Positions 33,357 through 43,510 of a stretch of 58,163 bases of DNA are shown in pieces. This DNA comes from Roseiflexus sp. (GTDB taxonomy: Bacteria > Chloroflexota > Chloroflexia > Chloroflexales > Roseiflexaceae), in contig JANXAL010000065.1 in the NCBI GenBank assembly GCA_025062325.1, positions 1 through 58,163 on the forward strand. Reading direction: 5' to 3'. The notes below the pieces were generated by a model. The model was not told the origin of the DNA and did not search any database. It was given only the letters and a program-made list of their open reading frames with translations. The first letter of the stretch is position 1; every line of letters starts with the position of its first letter. The position numbers and the translations under genes were made by a program.

Positions 33357-33560
33357 ATAAGGCGCAGGGCAAGAGGTACGAGGTGAGAGGGATGTTGAAG
33401 GTGGGAAGGTTGAAGGTGGGAAGGTCGAAGGCGCCCGTAGCGACGTTGCACCGCAACATCGACGCTCGAAGCGAGAAATCGAATATTGAACAGGACGCAG
33501 TGGGATGATACAACCACAGAGACACAGAGAACACCGAGCGAGATGATATTGCGAACTCGC
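33357..33560 (+). repeat. Purine-rich GGTGGGAAGGTYGAA repeats downstream of potC
   Basis: After the potC stop a 14-bp unit (TGAAGGTGGGAAGG) is repeated about three times at 33392-33430. A CGTTGCACCGCAAC inverted repeat follows near 33453. The element is low complexity and resembles, in complement, the CT-rich stretch at 16370-16500. No gene is seen. Confidence 0.65.
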
Positions 33561-33730
33561 TGACCCATTCGCGCATTCGTTTATTCGTGGTCCTATTCGT
33601 TGACCCATTCGCGCATTCGTTTATTCGCGGTCCTATTCGTTGACCCATTCGCATATTCGTTTATTCGCGGTCCTATTCGTTGACCCATTCGCGTATCTAT
33701 TCGAGACCCATTCGTTGACCCATTCGCGTA
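33561..33730 (+). repeat. 40-bp tandem repeat (minisatellite) in the potC-potD spacer
   Basis: Units begin at exactly 33561, 33601, 33641 and 33681, each starting TGACCCATTCGCGCATTCG. The first three are full 40-bp copies with only one to three differences. The fourth breaks off after about 20 bp and is followed by degenerate fragments to about 33735. There are no unique spacers, so it is not a CRISPR array. A period of 40 is not a multiple of three, so it is not coding. Confidence 0.93.
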
Positions 33731-33782
33731 TTCGTTCTTCGAAAGAGGTTTTCGGAGTACACACGTCAGAAAGGGAACAAAG

Positions 33783-35563: not shown

Positions 35564-36583
35564 ATGACGGATGCTTCCGCTGCCCGAAGCCAACCCTCTT
35601 CCCCGCAGGTGATTTCCGCTTCATACCGCACCGACATTCCAGCGCTCTACGGCGACTGGTTCATGGAACGCGTCCGTGAAGGATATGTGCGGTATTACAA
35701 CCCCTATGGTCCGCAGGTTGTGTCTGTGTCGTTGCAGCCGCAGGATGTGCACGCGATTGTCTTCTGGTCCAAGAACTACGCGCCGTTTATGCGCCATCTC
35801 GATGAGCTGGAGCAGCGGAACCTCGATTTCTATTTCCATTTCTCGATCAATGGCTATACCGCCGATCCCGCTGTTCGCCCGCTTGAAGAGCGTGTGCCGC
35901 ACCCGACACAGTCCATCAAGGTCTTTCGCGAACTGGCGACGCGCTATTCGCCCAAACATGTGCAATGGCGCTATGACCCGATTATCTACACGGATCGGAC
36001 CGATGAACAGTGGCATATGCGCACTTTTGCGAAGCTTGCGCGGCAACTGGAAGGGTTGACCGAACGGTGCTATTTCAGCTTCCTCGACATCTACGACAAA
36101 GTTGCCCGCAATATGCGCGGCCTCGATCAAGCCCTTCGACTACGCGATCGCTCGGATGAGGAAAAGCGCCAGTTGGCGCTTGAGTTGGCGCGGATCGCTG
36201 AGAACCACGGCATCACCCTCTACACCTGCGCCGAAGATTTCGCTGCAATTGGACCGATTAAGCGAGGTGCGTGCGTGGATAAGGACATCCTGGACGCCTT
36301 CTGGCCCCACAAGGCGCGGGCAATGAAGCTGTGCAGCAACCGCGGCAAATGCGGTTGCTACGACAGCCGCGACATCGGCGCGTATGACACCTGTCCGCTC
36401 GGCTGCGTGTATTGCTACGCCGTGCTCAATCGTCCCCTGGCGCTCAAACGCTATCGTGAGCACGATCCGCACCATGACGCGCTGATTAAGCGCGGTCCGA
36501 AAGAACCGCCAGCGCATACATTAGCGCACAACGAGATCATTCAGCCAGAGTTGCCACTCAATGATGATAGCAATGACCGGTGA
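35564..36583 (+). CDS. DUF1848 protein with C-terminal CX3CX2C (radical SAM-like) cysteine motif
   Basis: The 339-residue protein matches DUF1848 in its opening (VISASYRTDIPALYGDWFME) and the early VFWSKNYAPFMRHLDEL. Mid-protein segments FHFSINGYTADP and then VQWRYDPIIYTD resemble strands of a radical SAM barrel. Six cysteines cluster near the end: Cys257, Cys263, Cys265, Cys277, Cys281 and Cys284. The last three form C-X3-C-X2-C (CPLGCVYC), the radical SAM spacing that binds a [4Fe-4S] cluster, but at the C-terminus instead of the N-terminus. Activity is unknown. It is followed after 33 bp by the methyltransferase gene and then the RecQ-like gene, in one apparent operon. The start has a weak ribosome-binding site. 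Confidence 0.85.
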   Translation: MTDASAARSQPSSPQVISASYRTDIPALYGDWFMERVREGYVRYYNPYGPQVVSVSLQPQDVHAIVFWSKNYAPFMRHLDELEQRNLDFYFHFSINGYTADPAVRPLEERVPHPTQSIKVFRELATRYSPKHVQWRYDPIIYTDRTDEQWHMRTFAKLARQLEGLTERCYFSFLDIYDKVARNMRGLDQALRLRDRSDEEKRQLALELARIAENHGITLYTCAEDFAAIGPIKRGACVDKDILDAFWPHKARAMKLCSNRGKCGCYDSRDIGAYDTCPLGCVYCYAVLNRPLALKRYREHDPHHDALIKRGPKEPPAHTLAHNEIIQPELPLNDDSNDR

Positions 36584-36616
36584 GGTCAATGTGACCTATT
36601 GACGGGAAGCATACCT

Positions 36617-37882
36617 ATGCAGCACGCATCCGCTCCAGCTCTGCTTGCCACTCTGGAAACCATGATCGCCCCCGGAGGACGTGTGCGTGTGTCTCCGTAT
36701 GTGGAGAGCGCGCAGTTCCAGGTGCTGTTTGGCGAACGACCGCGCCCTGATCGCCGGTATGAAAGCGGCCTGTCGCTGCTCAAACAACACGATGCCCGCA
36801 TCAAACAACTGGCGCATGACTGGGTTCAGTTTTCCAATTACGGCAAATCATTCAACAGCGACTACTACGACTCGCCCGGTCAGCTTGACGCGTATCTGGC
36901 GTATTACTGCACCACGAATGTCGCCAAAGTTCAACTCTGTCTGCTCGATCTCCTGCGAGCTGGCGCGCTGCCGCAACCGCGCCTGCGGATTATCGACATC
37001 GGCGTCGGCACGGGGACGTCACTCCTGGGGGTCATGGATTTCCTGTTGACGTGGGCGACTGCGTGCGCGCTCTACGATGTCGAATTTCCGATTGAGGACG
37101 TGCAATTCATCGGTATTGATCGCAGCCGGAGCTGCCTTGACTATAGCAGTCGCGTGGCGCATGCCTGCGCCGATGCGGTTCAGGAGCGGCTTGATGCGCT
37201 GCGGGACGCCGATGCGCTCCCTGCGATCAGGAATGTTGAACGCTGGGCGCGCGCGGCGCGGTGGATGCCGCACGATCTCAACACAGCGTCCTTCGATGCC
37301 GACGAGCCAAACCTTCTTATTGCCTCGAATTCGTTCAACGAGCTCCAACCCATTGGTCGGCGTCACCTTGGATCGATGATCCTGAGTCTGTCAACGCAAG
37401 GCACTGCGATCATTATTGAGCCGGGGGACCGGAATAAATCCCAGACGCTGATGGACTGGCGTCTCCGGTTGGTGAAAGCCCATCCGCAGATCCGGGTCGT
37501 GGGACCGTGTGGGCACGCCAGGAGCAGTCCTTTGACCGAGGCGTGTTCGACATGCTGGAATGGACGCCGTGAGTCGTTGCACCAACCGCTGCTCTACAAA
37601 CGGTTTCGCGAAGCGGCTGCGGAGTTGAAAGTGGATGATCGTCCATTTCATGATTTTGAGAACGAACTGCTCTCGTGGACATATACCCTCCTCCAGAAAA
37701 ATGCAGAAGGAGGTCATTGCGCCCCGGAGCCGATACGCATCCGGGATGGCCAACCCTGGCCAGACGACATGCCGCTTATTTTTGTCGGTGCGTTCAGCGG
37801 CAAGAGACAGACGAGAGGCAGAAATGGCATTGATGATACTCAGGGCGATCAGTTAGTCGGTGTGCGTCAAGAGTTCGAATAA
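36617..37882 (+). CDS. Rsm22-like class I SAM-dependent methyltransferase
   Basis: The ATG at 36617 (MQHASAPALLATLE) with GGGAAG upstream is preferred over TTG at 36599. The 421-residue protein has a Rossmann-type SAM-binding motif I in LRIIDIGVGTGTSLLG (about residues 121-136), then FIGIDRSRSCLDY, an acidic motif II region. A later part has GPCGH...CSTCW, a cysteine cluster like the iron-sulphur or zinc site of Rsm22/METTL17 proteins, which act on or near the small ribosomal subunit. The match is by layout, so the RNA target is inferred. Its end overlaps the RecQ-like gene by 23 nt, which suggests coupled translation. Confidence 0.75.
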   Translation: MQHASAPALLATLETMIAPGGRVRVSPYVESAQFQVLFGERPRPDRRYESGLSLLKQHDARIKQLAHDWVQFSNYGKSFNSDYYDSPGQLDAYLAYYCTTNVAKVQLCLLDLLRAGALPQPRLRIIDIGVGTGTSLLGVMDFLLTWATACALYDVEFPIEDVQFIGIDRSRSCLDYSSRVAHACADAVQERLDALRDADALPAIRNVERWARAARWMPHDLNTASFDADEPNLLIASNSFNELQPIGRRHLGSMILSLSTQGTAIIIEPGDRNKSQTLMDWRLRLVKAHPQIRVVGPCGHARSSPLTEACSTCWNGRRESLHQPLLYKRFREAAAELKVDDRPFHDFENELLSWTYTLLQKNAEGGHCAPEPIRIRDGQPWPDDMPLIFVGAFSGKRQTRGRNGIDDTQGDQLVGVRQEFE

Positions 37883-40800
37883 TGCCGGGAATGGGGCGCA
37901 CCAGTATTTCAAGTGTTGTCCTGGCATTGTCGAACAGGCGCAGACTCTGGTCTTACGACGAGATGCCGGGATTGAACTCCCGCCGCTCGCATATGGCGCT
38001 GAAATAATCGTCGAAGGGGCAAAAGTAAAAAAGGTATCTGAAACACATATCGAGATCGAACCCAATGCGGAGACCCGGATTCGGTTGTGTTCGCCAGAAA
38101 AGCGTACCATTGAAACATTTTCTGAGGAAACATCTCCCGAGAAAACATCCCCTCAGGAAACGTTTCTTGAGGAAACATTTCTTAAGGTCTACTCCGAACG
38201 CACCCGCATGGCGATTGACGAAATCGGATACCGGCTGTTCGGCTTCCCACAGATGCACGCCTTTCAGCATCGCATTCTCGCTCATGTGTTGACGGGACGG
38301 AGCATTCTGGGGATTGCCGCAACCGGCGGCGGCAAGAGCGAGTGCTATATCCTGCCAGCGATGCTCCTCCCCGGCATTACAATTGTCGTCTCCCCGCTCA
38401 AATCGCTCATGGCCGATCAGTACGAGCAGCGCATCTGCCAGCGTTACGGTCTGGGCAATTTGAGCACATTCATTAACGGCGATGTGCCGTTCCAGGAGCG
38501 GCAGAGACGCCTGCGACACATCGAACTGGGGCATTATAAACTGGTATATGTCACCCCGGAACAGCTTGAGCGCAGTTATGTGCTCAATAGTCTGAAACAG
38601 GCGCACAAGAATGTCGGAATCCGCTATCTCGCGCTTGATGAAGCGCACTGCATCAGCCAGTGGGGGCACGACTTCCGCCCCAGCTATCTCAATATCGTGC
38701 ATCGCCTGCGCGCTCGAGGCTTGCACCCGGTACGCATCGCATTGACGGCGACTGCCAGCCCTGACGTTCGCCAGGACCTCTGTGAGGAGCTGGAACTGAA
38801 CCCTGCTTCGCTCGATCAGGGCGGCGATGTGTATATTGAGTCCTCAAATCGCCCCGAACTCAACCTGATCGTGCGCGTCTGCCGCACCACCGCTGAGAAA
38901 GTTGACGCCATCCTCAGCGATCTCCGGCGTCTGCAAGAGATGAACCGGGACAATCCCGAACCCGGCGCGGCGATTGTGTTTCTCCCCTGGACTGGAGGGC
39001 GTCCAGGTGATGGCGCGTCGGAGCAACCCGCGCCGAAGTCTGCGCTGAACCAGAACGGGGAGCGGCAGGACGAGGACGCGGCGACACGGGAGTCACAATG
39101 CGGGCGATTCAGCGCGGGCGTAACCCGGTTCGCTTCGTATCTGGAGCGAACGCTCGGAGAACGTGTGGCAATTTACCACAGCAAGATGGACGGCGATGAT
39201 CCAGCGGAGGAAGCAAACAGGGATGCGCCGGACAATCACCAAACCGGTGAGAACCGTCCGCTCGGCGACATGAGCGGACGCACCCGCAGCCAGCAACAGA
39301 ACGCCTTCATCACCGGCAAATGCAACATCATGGTGGCAACCAAAGGTTTTGGCATGGGCATCGACAAGCCCAATGTCCGGCTGGTGATCCATCGAACGCC
39401 GCCAGCCAATCTTGAGGCGTATGCCCAGGAAGCGGGACGCGCCGGGCGTGATCGGCAACTGGCTGACGTGATTCTGTACTATAGCCCTGATGAGGCTGAG
39501 GATATCGAAGAGTCCGGCAAGACGACAAAAGTGCCATCCGACCGGCAGATCCAGGAACGCTTTCTCTCCGAGAAGCACATACGGCGTGAAGATGTCATCG
39601 TCATGCGGGCATTCCTGCGCAGCGTCACCCGCAGGGTTGCGGATCGGCTCTATTTCACCAATGATGAGGCGATCGAGTTCTTTGATAAGTGTGTTGATAA
39701 TCCAATCGCGGAATTAGAGCAAGGCTATCGCTGGCCAACCTGGCCGGAGCGTGTTCCCAGCGGGTACGAGTCGCCCGAGCATCAAGCCATTCTGGATCGC
39801 GGCTATGAGTATCAAAAGAAAACAGACTATATCAAGCGTATCCTGGATGTGCTTTATCGGATCCGCCCCGCAACCGACGCGCACACGCGCGAAGCGCTGA
39901 TTCTGGAGTTGCGTCAATGCGGCGGAACTATTATCAAACCACAAGTCTATAATGTGAATGCCATCTTTCGTTCAAATGCGTATTTTGGCGACGTGCTGCG
40001 GAAGAGCGGCATTACGCCTCAAGAGTTTACGCAATTGTACATGGCTGGCGATTTGGACAAGGATGGCGATTTGATCCCGCTCGCAGAGCGCCTCGCCATG
40101 CCGCTCAGCGATCTTGAACAGATGATCCACGACATCCGCCAGTTCGACAGAGTTAGGGATCAACAGACCGGTAAGTGGCGTCCGGCGCTTCTGGATGGCC
40201 AGGTGAAGGCGCCGTGGTACGGTCCGGCAGCCGGACGCACCTCTCTGAAAGCGTGGCGTGACTACGCGGGGGCGTGGAAGCGCGCGTCAGATGCATATGA
40301 GCGCGCTAAAAAGGCGAATCCCTCAAAGCCATCTATCGACGACTGGTTTGGATGGTCTGAGGTGTGCTCACGTTATGGCTGGGAGGTGCTGGGCGGACCG
40401 GCGCTCGAGCGCGAAGACGACTTTGCCGATTATCTCGAGCGATTCATGGAAGTGCATGAGAGGCGTCGGGCAAATGACTGGGCGTCCTATAACCGCCTCC
40501 TCACCGACTATGTCGGCGTTCGGGAAGACGGTTCGATTGGCGACGCAGCAGGAAAAGAGTGCCTGCGCGCCGTGCTGCTCGGCTATCTCAAGACCTACGA
40601 AGTGGTTGTGGGCGGCAACTGCTACAGTTGCAGCCGCTGCGTGCCCGACGGAAACTTCGCAGCGTTCGACATGGAACAACGGCGGCACGCCGTGGCACGC
40701 ATGACCGAGGAGCTGGAACGGCTCTTCACGCAGGCGGAGAGTTTCAAGGACCGTCTGCCTGATGAACGCGCCATTGATCGCCTGTTTGACGCCATCCGTC

Positions 40801-42881
40801 AGGCGCAGGCTTCCGGATCATCGCTTGGCGCCTATCTCCAGGGTTGGACGGCGCGGCTCCTGCAGGATGCGCCGAACCATCAAGCGGCGCTTCTGATCCG
40901 TATTACGGCGATGCTGGAAGGCCTGTTCGAGCCGCAGCGACGCGACCTCCTGAACATGCTGCAAACGCTCGTCGATGTCGCAGCGGTTGAAGAGTCAGAA
41001 CGCATTGACCGCTTGATGTCGCGCGCGCGCGAACATCTCTCCGACTCAGACGAATTCCATCGTCTGCGTGCGACCATCGCGCGCCGCCTGAACAATCCGC
41101 AAGAAGAGGTCAGGGCATGGACTGACGTGGTGCGCATTCTCGAACAATCAAAGCACACTCCTCGACGGAAGCTTTACGACGCGCATCGCGAACTGATGCG
41201 CCTCTACGCGCCGGAAAGCCCGCTCCACGATCATACGCGCTACAACGAACATGCCCGTCATGCTGCGCGGCGTAGCCCCAATATTCCAGGCGCTCGCGCC
41301 ATTTACTCAAGCGTCGCGCCCCAATGGGAATGGCAGTTCATTGTTGACGAACTTGAGTATCTTACGAGTGACGCAGGAGACGATGCGCGCGCGCAGGCGT
41401 TGCTCCACTCCTGGCTTGCTGCGCGACCCGATGAGCGCGCTGCGGTCGTCGCAACCTGGTTGAGCGAGAAGCCATCGCTCTGGCAGACATGGCCAGTTGA
41501 AGCTATCGAACCCATCATCCGGTTGTTCCCTGAGTCGCTCCTCCGCGAGCATCCGCGCATCCCCCTGCATGTGGCGCAACAATCCGGCAACCTCGACGAT
41601 ATGGTTCAGTGGTCTCAGGTGATCGTCGAACGCAATGAGGCGCTGGCTGATGATGCGCTTGAAAGGATCGCCCTGGCTGCCGCCGATGGCCACGAACAGG
41701 CGCGCCGCCTCATCGACCAGTTGCGCAGCGATCCGGACAGAGCAGAGGCTACCTATCAGGTGATGAAACCTGTTATCATCACGAAAGGATGGAACCGCGC
41801 CGCGTGGTTTGTCGAGCGTTTCGCCGAACGGATTGCTGCTGACGAACCGGCGGCGCGTCTCGACATTCTTGAGCGCTGTATCAACAGTATTACGAATAAT
41901 GTAGAACGGTCAGACGCTTTGCAGCGACTCGAGCAGATTGCGCAATCGCTCTTTGATTGTCCGGAGACAGCAGCGCAGGCGCGGTCCGTATGGCATCGCC
42001 TGTACATCGAGCAGCCGCAGGCCGCCATTTCATACTTGACTGAGTGTCAGAGCGATCAGCGTACCGCCAGCTACGCAATTGATTGCCTGCAAACCCTGCG
42101 AACGATGCACAAACCAACGGTTAACGCAATCTACGCACTTCTCAAACCTCGATTTGTGCAAAAGACAAGAACTTTACAGGGAATGATGTTATGGTGCGAA
42201 TGGTTTGAAGCTGAAATTCTTGCAGACTCATCGGAAGACCGTCTTGACGTGTTCAAGCGCTCGCTTGCCCTGGCGTATCAGATGCCTGATCGAGCCAAGT
42301 TTTACAAAACCCTGGCGCCGATTGCGGTCAGTCTGTTGCTTGATCGGAACGTCCAATTCCGAGAGATTTATGGATTCCTGCGGAAGTGTGCAATTGACTA
42401 TCCCGAAATATGTGATCAGATGTATGATCGCTTCAAGGCGCAACTGAGCGGGTGCACCTGGGAAACGGTTGAAGCCTGGCTGGCGATCTTTCAGGCAAGG
42501 ATACTGCAAGAGAGTTCAGGTGATCTCATCAGTCTCCTCAGGCGCTGGCAAACGCTGCTCCCGCGAACACCAGCGCGGCGTGCAGCGCTCCGGCGGTTGC
42601 TGCCGCTGGTGCAGAAACTCTTGAGCGACGCCGCATATACCAGAAAAGCCAGCAAACTCTGGGGAGAAATCTGCAGCGACTATCCCATCTATGTGCCGGG
42701 TGATCGCGTCTGGCATCCATCGTTTGGTCTTGGGCGCGTGATTGCAACATCCGTGTTAGAAAGTACGCAGACTCCTCTCATCTCAGTGGAGTTTGATCAG
42801 GCAGGCACTATGGAATTTTCGCTGCACCGCGTCGGGATTGGGATCGTTGAATTGGCGCAAGAACCGACGCCTGTCACCTGA
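37860..42881 (+). CDS. Giant RecQ-type helicase with large insertions and a Tudor-like C-terminus
   Basis: This is a 1673-residue superfamily 2 helicase; E. coli RecQ has about 610. After an N-terminal beta-rich segment of about 80 residues and five pentapeptide repeats (84-108), the core begins near residue 125. It has Walker A ATGGGKSE (Lys159), the DEAH box at 260-263 in LALDEAHCISQWGHDFRPSY, and motif VI YAQEAGRAGRD at 521-531. Lobe 2 has a low-complexity insertion (about 365-480). A 370-residue stretch then separates motif VI from the RecQ zinc site Cys901, Cys921, Cys924 and Cys927 (CX19CX2CX2C). About 680 residues of helical repeats follow, then a Tudor-like end (about 1612-1665, GDRVWHPSFGLGRVIA). 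It should unwind DNA 3' to 5'. GTG at 37860 is the assumed start. Confidence 0.88.
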   Translation: MCVKSSNNAGNGAHQYFKCCPGIVEQAQTLVLRRDAGIELPPLAYGAEIIVEGAKVKKVSETHIEIEPNAETRIRLCSPEKRTIETFSEETSPEKTSPQETFLEETFLKVYSERTRMAIDEIGYRLFGFPQMHAFQHRILAHVLTGRSILGIAATGGGKSECYILPAMLLPGITIVVSPLKSLMADQYEQRICQRYGLGNLSTFINGDVPFQERQRRLRHIELGHYKLVYVTPEQLERSYVLNSLKQAHKNVGIRYLALDEAHCISQWGHDFRPSYLNIVHRLRARGLHPVRIALTATASPDVRQDLCEELELNPASLDQGGDVYIESSNRPELNLIVRVCRTTAEKVDAILSDLRRLQEMNRDNPEPGAAIVFLPWTGGRPGDGASEQPAPKSALNQNGERQDEDAATRESQCGRFSAGVTRFASYLERTLGERVAIYHSKMDGDDPAEEANRDAPDNHQTGENRPLGDMSGRTRSQQQNAFITGKCNIMVATKGFGMGIDKPNVRLVIHRTPPANLEAYAQEAGRAGRDRQLADVILYYSPDEAEDIEESGKTTKVPSDRQIQERFLSEKHIRREDVIVMRAFLRSVTRRVADRLYFTNDEAIEFFDKCVDNPIAELEQGYRWPTWPERVPSGYESPEHQAILDRGYEYQKKTDYIKRILDVLYRIRPATDAHTREALILELRQCGGTIIKPQVYNVNAIFRSNAYFGDVLRKSGITPQEFTQLYMAGDLDKDGDLIPLAERLAMPLSDLEQMIHDIRQFDRVRDQQTGKWRPALLDGQVKAPWYGPAAGRTSLKAWRDYAGAWKRASDAYERAKKANPSKPSIDDWFGWSEVCSRYGWEVLGGPALEREDDFADYLERFMEVHERRRANDWASYNRLLTDYVGVREDGSIGDAAGKECLRAVLLGYLKTYEVVVGGNCYSCSRCVPDGNFAAFDMEQRRHAVARMTEELERLFTQAESFKDRLPDERAIDRLFDAIRQAQASGSSLGAYLQGWTARLLQDAPNHQAALLIRITAMLEGLFEPQRRDLLNMLQTLVDVAAVEESERIDRLMSRAREHLSDSDEFHRLRATIARRLNNPQEEVRAWTDVVRILEQSKHTPRRKLYDAHRELMRLYAPESPLHDHTRYNEHARHAARRSPNIPGARAIYSSVAPQWEWQFIVDELEYLTSDAGDDARAQALLHSWLAARPDERAAVVATWLSEKPSLWQTWPVEAIEPIIRLFPESLLREHPRIPLHVAQQSGNLDDMVQWSQVIVERNEALADDALERIALAAADGHEQARRLIDQLRSDPDRAEATYQVMKPVIITKGWNRAAWFVERFAERIAADEPAARLDILERCINSITNNVERSDALQRLEQIAQSLFDCPETAAQARSVWHRLYIEQPQAAISYLTECQSDQRTASYAIDCLQTLRTMHKPTVNAIYALLKPRFVQKTRTLQGMMLWCEWFEAEILADSSEDRLDVFKRSLALAYQMPDRAKFYKTLAPIAVSLLLDRNVQFREIYGFLRKCAIDYPEICDQMYDRFKAQLSGCTWETVEAWLAIFQARILQESSGDLISLLRRWQTLLPRTPARRAALRRLLPLVQKLLSDAAYTRKASKLWGEICSDYPIYVPGDRVWHPSFGLGRVIATSVLESTQTPLISVEFDQAGTMEFSLHRVGIGIVELAQEPTPVT
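38109..38183 (+). repeat. Five in-frame 15-bp repeats encoding pentapeptides in the RecQ-like gene
   Basis: Five consecutive 15-bp units (consensus GAGGAAACATYTCYY) start at 38109, 38124, 38139, 38154 and 38169. Each encodes one pentapeptide of the type E-E-T-F-L: IETFS, EETSP, EKTSP, QETFL, EETFL. They join the N-terminal segment to the helicase core and would change length in steps of five residues. Confidence 0.9.
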
Positions 42882-43313: not shown

Positions 43314-43387
43314 TGGCTGGGGGACAGGGACTCGAACCCCGACTACCTGATCCAGAGTCAGGCGTTCTACCGTTAAACTATCCCCCA
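43314..43387 (-). tRNA. tRNA-Gln (anticodon CTG)
   Basis: On the reverse strand the acceptor stem TGGGGGA pairs with TCCCCCA, with the anticodon stem CCTGA/TCAGG around the loop CTCTGGA (anticodon CTG) and the T-arm GGTTCGAGTCC. The first base is U, as is common for tRNA-Gln. CCA is encoded at 43314-43316. It lies 36 bp downstream of tRNA-Leu. Confidence 0.96.
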
Positions 43388-43395
43388 TCATTGAA

Positions 43396-43420
43396 GCAGG
43401 GGCGAAGTGTTCGCCCCTGC
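43396..43420 (-). other. Perfect 11-bp hairpin between tRNA-Leu and tRNA-Gln
   Basis: GCAGGGGCGAA (43396-43406) pairs with TTCGCCCCTGC (43410-43420) around a 3-nt loop. It fills the spacer between two tRNA genes and lacks a T-run. An RNA-processing signal or an attenuator is more likely than a full terminator. Confidence 0.7.
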
Positions 43421-43423
43421 TGA

Positions 43424-43510
<87 letters not shown>

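Follow-up and report, generated by a model that had tools for sequence, protein, structure and literature searches.

The locus analyzed here raises the question of how a protein with a radical-SAM-type cysteine motif close to its C terminus could be related to the radical-SAM enzymes. The window, a 58,163-nucleotide stretch of DNA from Roseiflexus sp., encodes a DUF1848 protein of 339 amino acids (positions 35564–36583, + strand). The Pfam profile PF08902 (DUF1848) matches it over its full length with 304.1 bits against a cut-off of 30.5 (E = 1.4e-90), and the protein is an ordinary family member without any difference from the others. The sequence C277-X3-C281-X2-C284 (36392–36415) lies at 82–84% of the chain, in the last fifth, exactly where the preliminary description had placed it when suggesting that the first strand of a radical-SAM barrel had moved to the end. 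To our knowledge, radical-SAM proteins have been assumed to keep an invariable core order in which the cluster loop comes after the first strand. The Pfam note on DUF1848 presumably already cites a C-terminal cysteine cluster resembling Radical_SAM. Here, we propose that DUF1848 is a permuted, SAM-cleaving radical-SAM enzyme, which we consider likely. What the computations demonstrate is the class of the fold, its permuted order, the conservation of the cysteines, and the pairing of the genes; cluster binding and SAM cleavage are inferred, without biochemistry.

The spacing alone is little proof, because CX3CX2C appeared in 76 of 20,000 shuffled versions of the window protein. The real evidence for the motif is the conservation of its cysteines. 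Alignment A2 comprises 98 DUF1848 relatives gathered with two search patterns, and alignment A1 comprises 14 proteins, namely, the window protein and 13 others found by profile search alone, without use of the motif. C277, C281, C284, and the adjoining Y283 and Y285 (YCY) are invariant across the 98 relatives, but this count is biased because one of the two collecting patterns held CX3CX2C. All three motif cysteines are present in 13 of the 14 A1 proteins. One A1 member (L014, 1495–2454) has CX2CX2C in place of CX3CX2C. The motif cysteines, YCY, and the residues aligned with the SAM pocket of spore photoproduct lyase (SPL), namely, K/R70, T/S94, and D138-P139, are kept in distant members, including those of phages. 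An accidental spacing in a zinc-binding tail unrelated to radical-SAM enzymes would be allowed by the shuffling frequency given above, but the invariance across phyla, the radical-SAM structure matches, and the permutation-dependent profile alignment described below make this explanation extremely improbable.

The AlphaFold2 model of the window protein, built with A2 (pLDDT 90.6, pTM 0.88), is a TIM-type barrel closest to radical-SAM enzymes; a fold without such a barrel would have refuted the permutation. The E-values of Foldseek were modest, the best (4e-4) being that of a radical-SAM thioether enzyme, and other TIM barrels ranked near the radical-SAM entries. When the model was realigned with VIA-align, the top 22 solved-structure entries were all radical-SAM enzymes (Z = 9.4–8.1), including SPL, PFL activase, RlmN, Elp3, viperin, SuiB, NifB, and Mmp10, and non-radical-SAM barrels were listed at Z = 7–8. 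In the best match, SPL (Z = 9.4, rmsd 3.6, 187 aligned residues, 18% identity), residues 9–223 of the model were aligned on SPL 128–341, i.e. past the first strand and cysteine loop of SPL. PFL activase (Z = 9.3) was aligned from residue 61 (61–245), beyond its cysteine loop, and RlmN (Z = 9.3) from residue 163. In all three rows, which were the ones checked, the alignment begins only past the canonical first strand. We take the cysteine loops to be C90/94/97 in SPL, a numbering that agrees with the chain sequence, and C29/33/36 in PFL activase. Because the best rows start after the cysteine loops of SPL and PFL activase, strands 2–6 are N-terminal in DUF1848, and the cysteine loop comes last. 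The rows against complete eight-stranded barrels extend to residues 309–322 (e.g. 7uek, 15–309). These rows are consistent with a C-terminal strand that closes the barrel beside strand 15–18, a pairing that, like the closeness of the cysteines, was inferred and not taken from coordinates. Judged by its best structural matches, the model is a partial TIM barrel as in radical-SAM enzymes; the position of strand 1 within it is inferred.

The permuted order was also examined by profile comparison. The reference profile was made from 29 SplB-like radical-SAM proteins encoded in genomes of the same phylum as the window, and residues 255–310 of DUF1848 (the C-terminal 56) were placed before residue 14. 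In native order, the DUF1848 profile was aligned with the SplB-like profile at the motif only (39 columns, score 55.1), whereas the permuted profile was aligned over 228 columns (score 76.8, E = 2.7e-10). Some block-shuffled bodies placed behind the motif reach 64–72 (top 72.1), so that the full permuted profile clears this harsher control only narrowly, and the body-only comparison is the cleaner test. The body alone scored 37.9, above every shuffle (column shuffles, maximum 21.4; block shuffles, maximum 31.0 and 31.6; reversal, 14.0). A relationship to SPL and SplB-like proteins beyond the motif is therefore indicated by the body-only score, and it covers the full length only once the order is permuted. 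Cut points from 130 to 270 gave the same alignment gain, and those at 30–110 or at 290 and above gave none; therefore, the gain requires that the body segment with strands 3–5 come after the motif. The gain (from ~40 to ~225 columns) was repeated in the full set and four random halves and also in 17 viral-contig members and 81 other members, each taken separately. A second alignment pair gave 148 columns in permuted order versus 25 in native order. Comparison of the body with the RlmN (14.2), HMGL-like (21.5), and AP_endonuc_2 (17.5) profiles gave nothing above their shuffles, and the RlmN profile matched DUF1848 at the motif only. Judged from these profiles, the body similarity is specific to SplB-like radical-SAM proteins as against the three other barrel families. 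HMMER searches with permuted sequences recovered no radical-SAM body, and Pfam scans of permuted sequences gave no improvement on the native ones; single-sequence scans are too weak here. PDB matches of the native and permuted profiles in HMMER, such as PDE1B, were discarded as motif or chance matches only.

These comparisons bear on convergence, in which an unrelated TIM barrel would have gained a cysteine loop of its own at the C terminus. ThiC is a precedent, since its TIM barrel acquired a C-terminal cluster separately, and TIM barrels match each other easily, as the non-radical-SAM barrels at Z = 7–8 illustrate. However, radical-SAM enzymes occupy all of the top 22 structure places, the body similarity is specific to SplB-like proteins, and CX3CX2C with the YCY flank is common to SPL and SplB-like proteins. 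We regard convergence as improbable. The permuted radical-SAM order of DUF1848 is well supported, both by the TIM-type model with its radical-SAM matches and by the permutation-dependent profile alignment.

The strand equivalents can be assigned as follows (all on the + strand). Residues 15–24 (the VISASYRTD region; 35606–35635), with strand 15–18 in the model, are equivalent to strand 2. Their T23-D24 is nearly invariant (T in 95 and D in 97 of 97) and pairs with TD of SplB-like proteins (RTD with ATD); from the VIA-align offset, we infer that this region may correspond to about SPL 142–143. The equivalent of strand 3 is residues 62–70 (..FWSK; 35747–35773; model strand 62–69), where FWSK is aligned with ITTKS of SplB-like proteins, and residue 70 is K in 72 and R in 24 of the 98 relatives. 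Residues 89–96 (..FHFSIN; 35828–35851; model strand 89–94) are equivalent to strand 4. They contain T/S94 (T in 92 and S in 6 of the 98), FHFSIN stands opposite RFRFSIN of SPL, and E108 is aligned with E-P of SPL. The strand 5 equivalent, residues 133–140 (..WRYDPI; 35960–35983; model strand 133–140), stands opposite GFVVAPI of SPL, and its R136 and D138-P139 are nearly invariant. The SPL residues concerned (K174, S195, and A234) are presumably located at the SAM site. The fragments FHFSINGYTADP (residues 91–102) and RYDPIIYTD (136–144) had earlier been read as later strands of the barrel; they were located correctly and are indeed aligned with the matching SPL strands. No radical-SAM role is known for the strongly conserved W68 and W135-R136. 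Residues 266–285 (36359–36418), with C277, C281, C284, and the invariant YCY, form the relocated first strand and CX3CX2C loop. Their counterpart in the profile alignment is the motif near the N terminus of SplB-like proteins, and they include a weak match to positions 4–17 of the Pfam Radical_SAM model.

Four further cysteines, C222, C237, C263, and C265 (36227–36358, + strand), are present in 98 of 98 relatives in A2 and 14 of 14 proteins in A1. The preliminary description proposed a second cluster held by C257, C263, and C265. The places given for these residues are correct, and the invariant C263 and C265 remain candidates together with C222 and C237, but C257 drops out, being variable (K in 48 of the 98). 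The four residues probably hold a second cluster (4Fe-4S) or zinc, metal binding being inferred from conservation. The hydrogen-donor cysteine of SPL, which we take to be C140 of Geobacillus SPL (consistent with the SPL chain sequence), has no counterpart in DUF1848: there is no conserved cysteine near strand 2, and the first invariant one is C222.

In the window, DUF1848 is followed directly by an Rsm22/METTL17-like gene of methyltransferase fold (36599–37882, + strand; PF09243, 29.7 bits with a cut-off of 23) and then by the third gene of the cluster, which encodes a RecQ-like helicase of 1673 amino acids (37860–42881, + strand; RecQ family model, 239 bits with a cut-off of 219.8). The helicase is also matched by DpdF of PADLOC (E = 4.3e-85). 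The second and third genes overlap in different frames. In the same genus, locus L281 (77–81% identical) encodes both as a single 2102-amino acid protein, and the two-gene form of the window may be genuine or may result from an indel in the assembly. The Rsm22-like part and helicase are fused in L281, L282, L283, and L163, where DUF1848 is directly upstream. Among the other loci with a readable context, DUF1848 adjoins split or interrupted frames in L284 and L286, no DUF1848 was found within 7 kb upstream of the Rsm22-like gene in L285, and the Rsm22-like locus of L287 stops at the contig border. The Rsm22-like gene occurs in two of the five same-genus genomes listed and is rare in the window's phylum (9 of 400 genomes). 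Shortly downstream of the helicase, genes for tRNA-Gln and tRNA-Leu (43314–43510) may mark an island boundary. A 40-bp unit is repeated in tandem (4.6 copies; 33557–33736) between transporter genes.

Outside the window-type group, 12 members of a second methyltransferase family of ~300 amino acids were found when the sequences flanking 113 DUF1848 loci were examined. All 12 directly adjoin DUF1848 on the same strand with gaps of −60 to +16, and they come from Ignavibacteriae, Phycisphaerales, Geobacter, Bacteroidales, Syntrophomonadaceae, Enterobacterales, and genomes of the window's phylum. An E. coli gene before DUF1848 and a convergent Planktothrix gene after DUF1848 also belong to this family. 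When the predicted structure of the ~300-amino acid partner (pLDDT 85.4) was compared, METTL17/Rsm22 chains filled the top seven places (Z = 17–20.5 over ~240 residues, within a METTL17/Rsm22 range of 15–20.5), and other methyltransferases scored Z = 16.6 or less. Because the METTL17/Rsm22 chains come first, the two sequence types of the partner belong to one structural family. Three cysteines of the window-type partner (304, 316, and 319) are conserved among the five proteins compared; the pattern of human METTL17 has four (C333/C339/C347/C404). METTL17 carries an Fe-S cluster and interacts with the small subunit of the mitoribosome (PMC11046306). The pairing of DUF1848 with an Rsm22-like protein is frequent but not universal, being found in several phyla and E. 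coli, and no other immediate neighbor of DUF1848 recurs widely.

The nature of this partner is relevant to a further possibility, that DUF1848 has the permuted fold without radical chemistry, its seven cysteines holding structural zinc or Fe-S in a nucleic-acid-binding accessory protein. Rsm22/METTL17 proteins themselves retain a methyltransferase fold and Fe-S and act in ribosome assembly (PMC11046306), and a few DUF1848 members give weak zinc-finger-type Pfam matches. Nevertheless, distant and phage members conserve not only the cluster cysteines and YCY but also K/R70, T/S94, and D138-P139, and we do not expect a purely structural role.

We therefore return to the SAM-cleaving enzyme and propose its mechanism. 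DUF1848 would have derived from the SPL/SplB-like branch, its chain beginning at the canonical strand 2 and finishing with strand 1 and the CX3CX2C loop. The C-terminal strand would turn back to lie alongside strand 2, putting the SAM-cleaving [4Fe-4S] cluster at its usual site, where C277, C281, and C284 may bind [4Fe-4S] and SAM; C222, C237, C263, and C265 would carry the second cluster or zinc. The reduced cluster would cleave SAM to generate a 5'-deoxyadenosyl radical, which may attack a substrate handled jointly with the Rsm22/METTL17-like methyltransferase. SPL repairs DNA. Because of this activity, the engagement of the mitoribosome by METTL17, an RNA-binding relative of the partner, and the presence of a helicase, a nucleic acid is our best guess for the substrate, an inference that remains tentative.

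A DNA match to the pair of DUF1848 and Rsm22-like genes was found in 30 of 5,426 complete E. coli genomes, and in both examples examined, the pair is within an integrative conjugative element. The two genes (L180, 8207–9936; L181, 4207–5936) overlap by 4 bp and are located between conjugation genes. DUF1848 relatives also occur on plasmids and viral contigs of up to 452 kb. These mobile contexts, with the PADLOC model discussed below, fit a role in inter-element conflict; no defence activity has been shown. An uncultured phage, cr272_1, has a 1278-amino acid protein piece (A0A7M1RU68_5) with a strong match to the DUF1848 model (E = 2.4e-11), which suggests a DUF1848-like domain within a large phage protein. 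On a Roseburia plasmid (L178, 4322–6942), genes for a macrodomain ADP-ribose hydrolase and a Sir2-type protein directly precede DUF1848. The PCHR motif of O6-methylguanine-DNA methyltransferases is found in genes that adjoin DUF1848 at L080 (9318–9929), L098 (9316–9927), and L093 (9481–9948); these three loci, and an AlkB gene near DUF1848 on one plasmid, are too few for partners to be recognized. A reverse-transcriptase neighbor was seen on one viral contig only (L102) and was rejected as a partner; there, the enzyme resembles a component of a diversity-generating element. The apparent DUF1848 fusions of L039 and L027 resemble spurious long open frames; in L039, the added part matches PF10712, which we read as antisense to NAD-glutamate dehydrogenase. 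The conserved neighbors in Rhodospirillales (the L039-type frame, GrpE, and RNase PH) are explained by shared synteny.

In the literature searched, the coverage of which was incomplete, we found no mention of DUF1848, PF08902, or IPR014998 and no permuted radical-SAM protein. The whole-core permutation and the pairing with an Rsm22-like protein appear to be new, but novelty is unproven because of the incomplete coverage. In the most far-reaching reading, DUF1848 would be the first recognized circularly permuted radical-SAM family, a two-cluster enzyme acting with an Rsm22/METTL17-like methyltransferase and, in the window, with a RecQ-like helicase. Together they would form a mobile module for the modification or repair of nucleic acid when bacteria and mobile elements are in conflict. 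Taken as a whole, this picture is possible but rather unlikely to hold in every part. If the natural permutation is true, the cluster-bearing strand can be relocated. The permutation would also explain why a widespread family was left unnamed by Pfam-type searches, and it suggests that further radical-SAM families hidden by a C-terminal motif should be sought. The recurrent Rsm22/METTL17-like pairing offers a testable bacterial system for a medically interesting protein family.

Among the known systems, RTasDUF1848 of PADLOC (PDLC03815, filed under DRT) matches the window protein (E = 7.1e-56). A DRT accessory protein would have a reverse transcriptase nearby, and none is present among the adjacent window genes (Rsm22-like, RecQ-like, and solute-binding protein), nor does any match other than that to the RTasDUF1848 profile point to DRT; in contrast to RTasDUF1848/DRT, the partners here are the Rsm22-like protein and RecQ-like helicase. 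Radical-SAM proteins of PF04055 have three cysteines in CX3CX2C, as C277, C281, and C284 do. In canonical members, this motif comes after the first strand and ahead of the remainder of the barrel, which is not so in DUF1848. Because its motif is at 82–84% of the chain, DUF1848 is classed as a permuted variant and not as a canonical member. The window protein scores 12.9 bits with PF04055, below the gathering score of 29.5, and 11.1 bits with NF033668, below the curated cut-off of 360; weak Radical_SAM matches occur in 51 of the 98 relatives (best E = 1.4e-4). ThiC (pyrimidine phosphate synthase) belongs to a barrel family of its own and has its cluster motif, CX2CX4C, C-terminal to the TIM barrel. 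DUF1848 resembles ThiC in this location but differs in the motif. The closest relatives are SPL (PDB IDs: 4k9r, 4rh0, and 4fhe-g) and SplB-like proteins (NF033668, PA0069 type), with which DUF1848 shares strands 2–6 in order, the CX3CX-Y-C-Y cluster loop, the FSIN strand followed by E-P, and the ..PI strand; T-D after strand 2 is shared with the SplB-like proteins. Unlike these proteins, DUF1848 has strand 1 and the cluster loop at the C terminus, lacks helix 1, and possesses four extra invariant cysteines.
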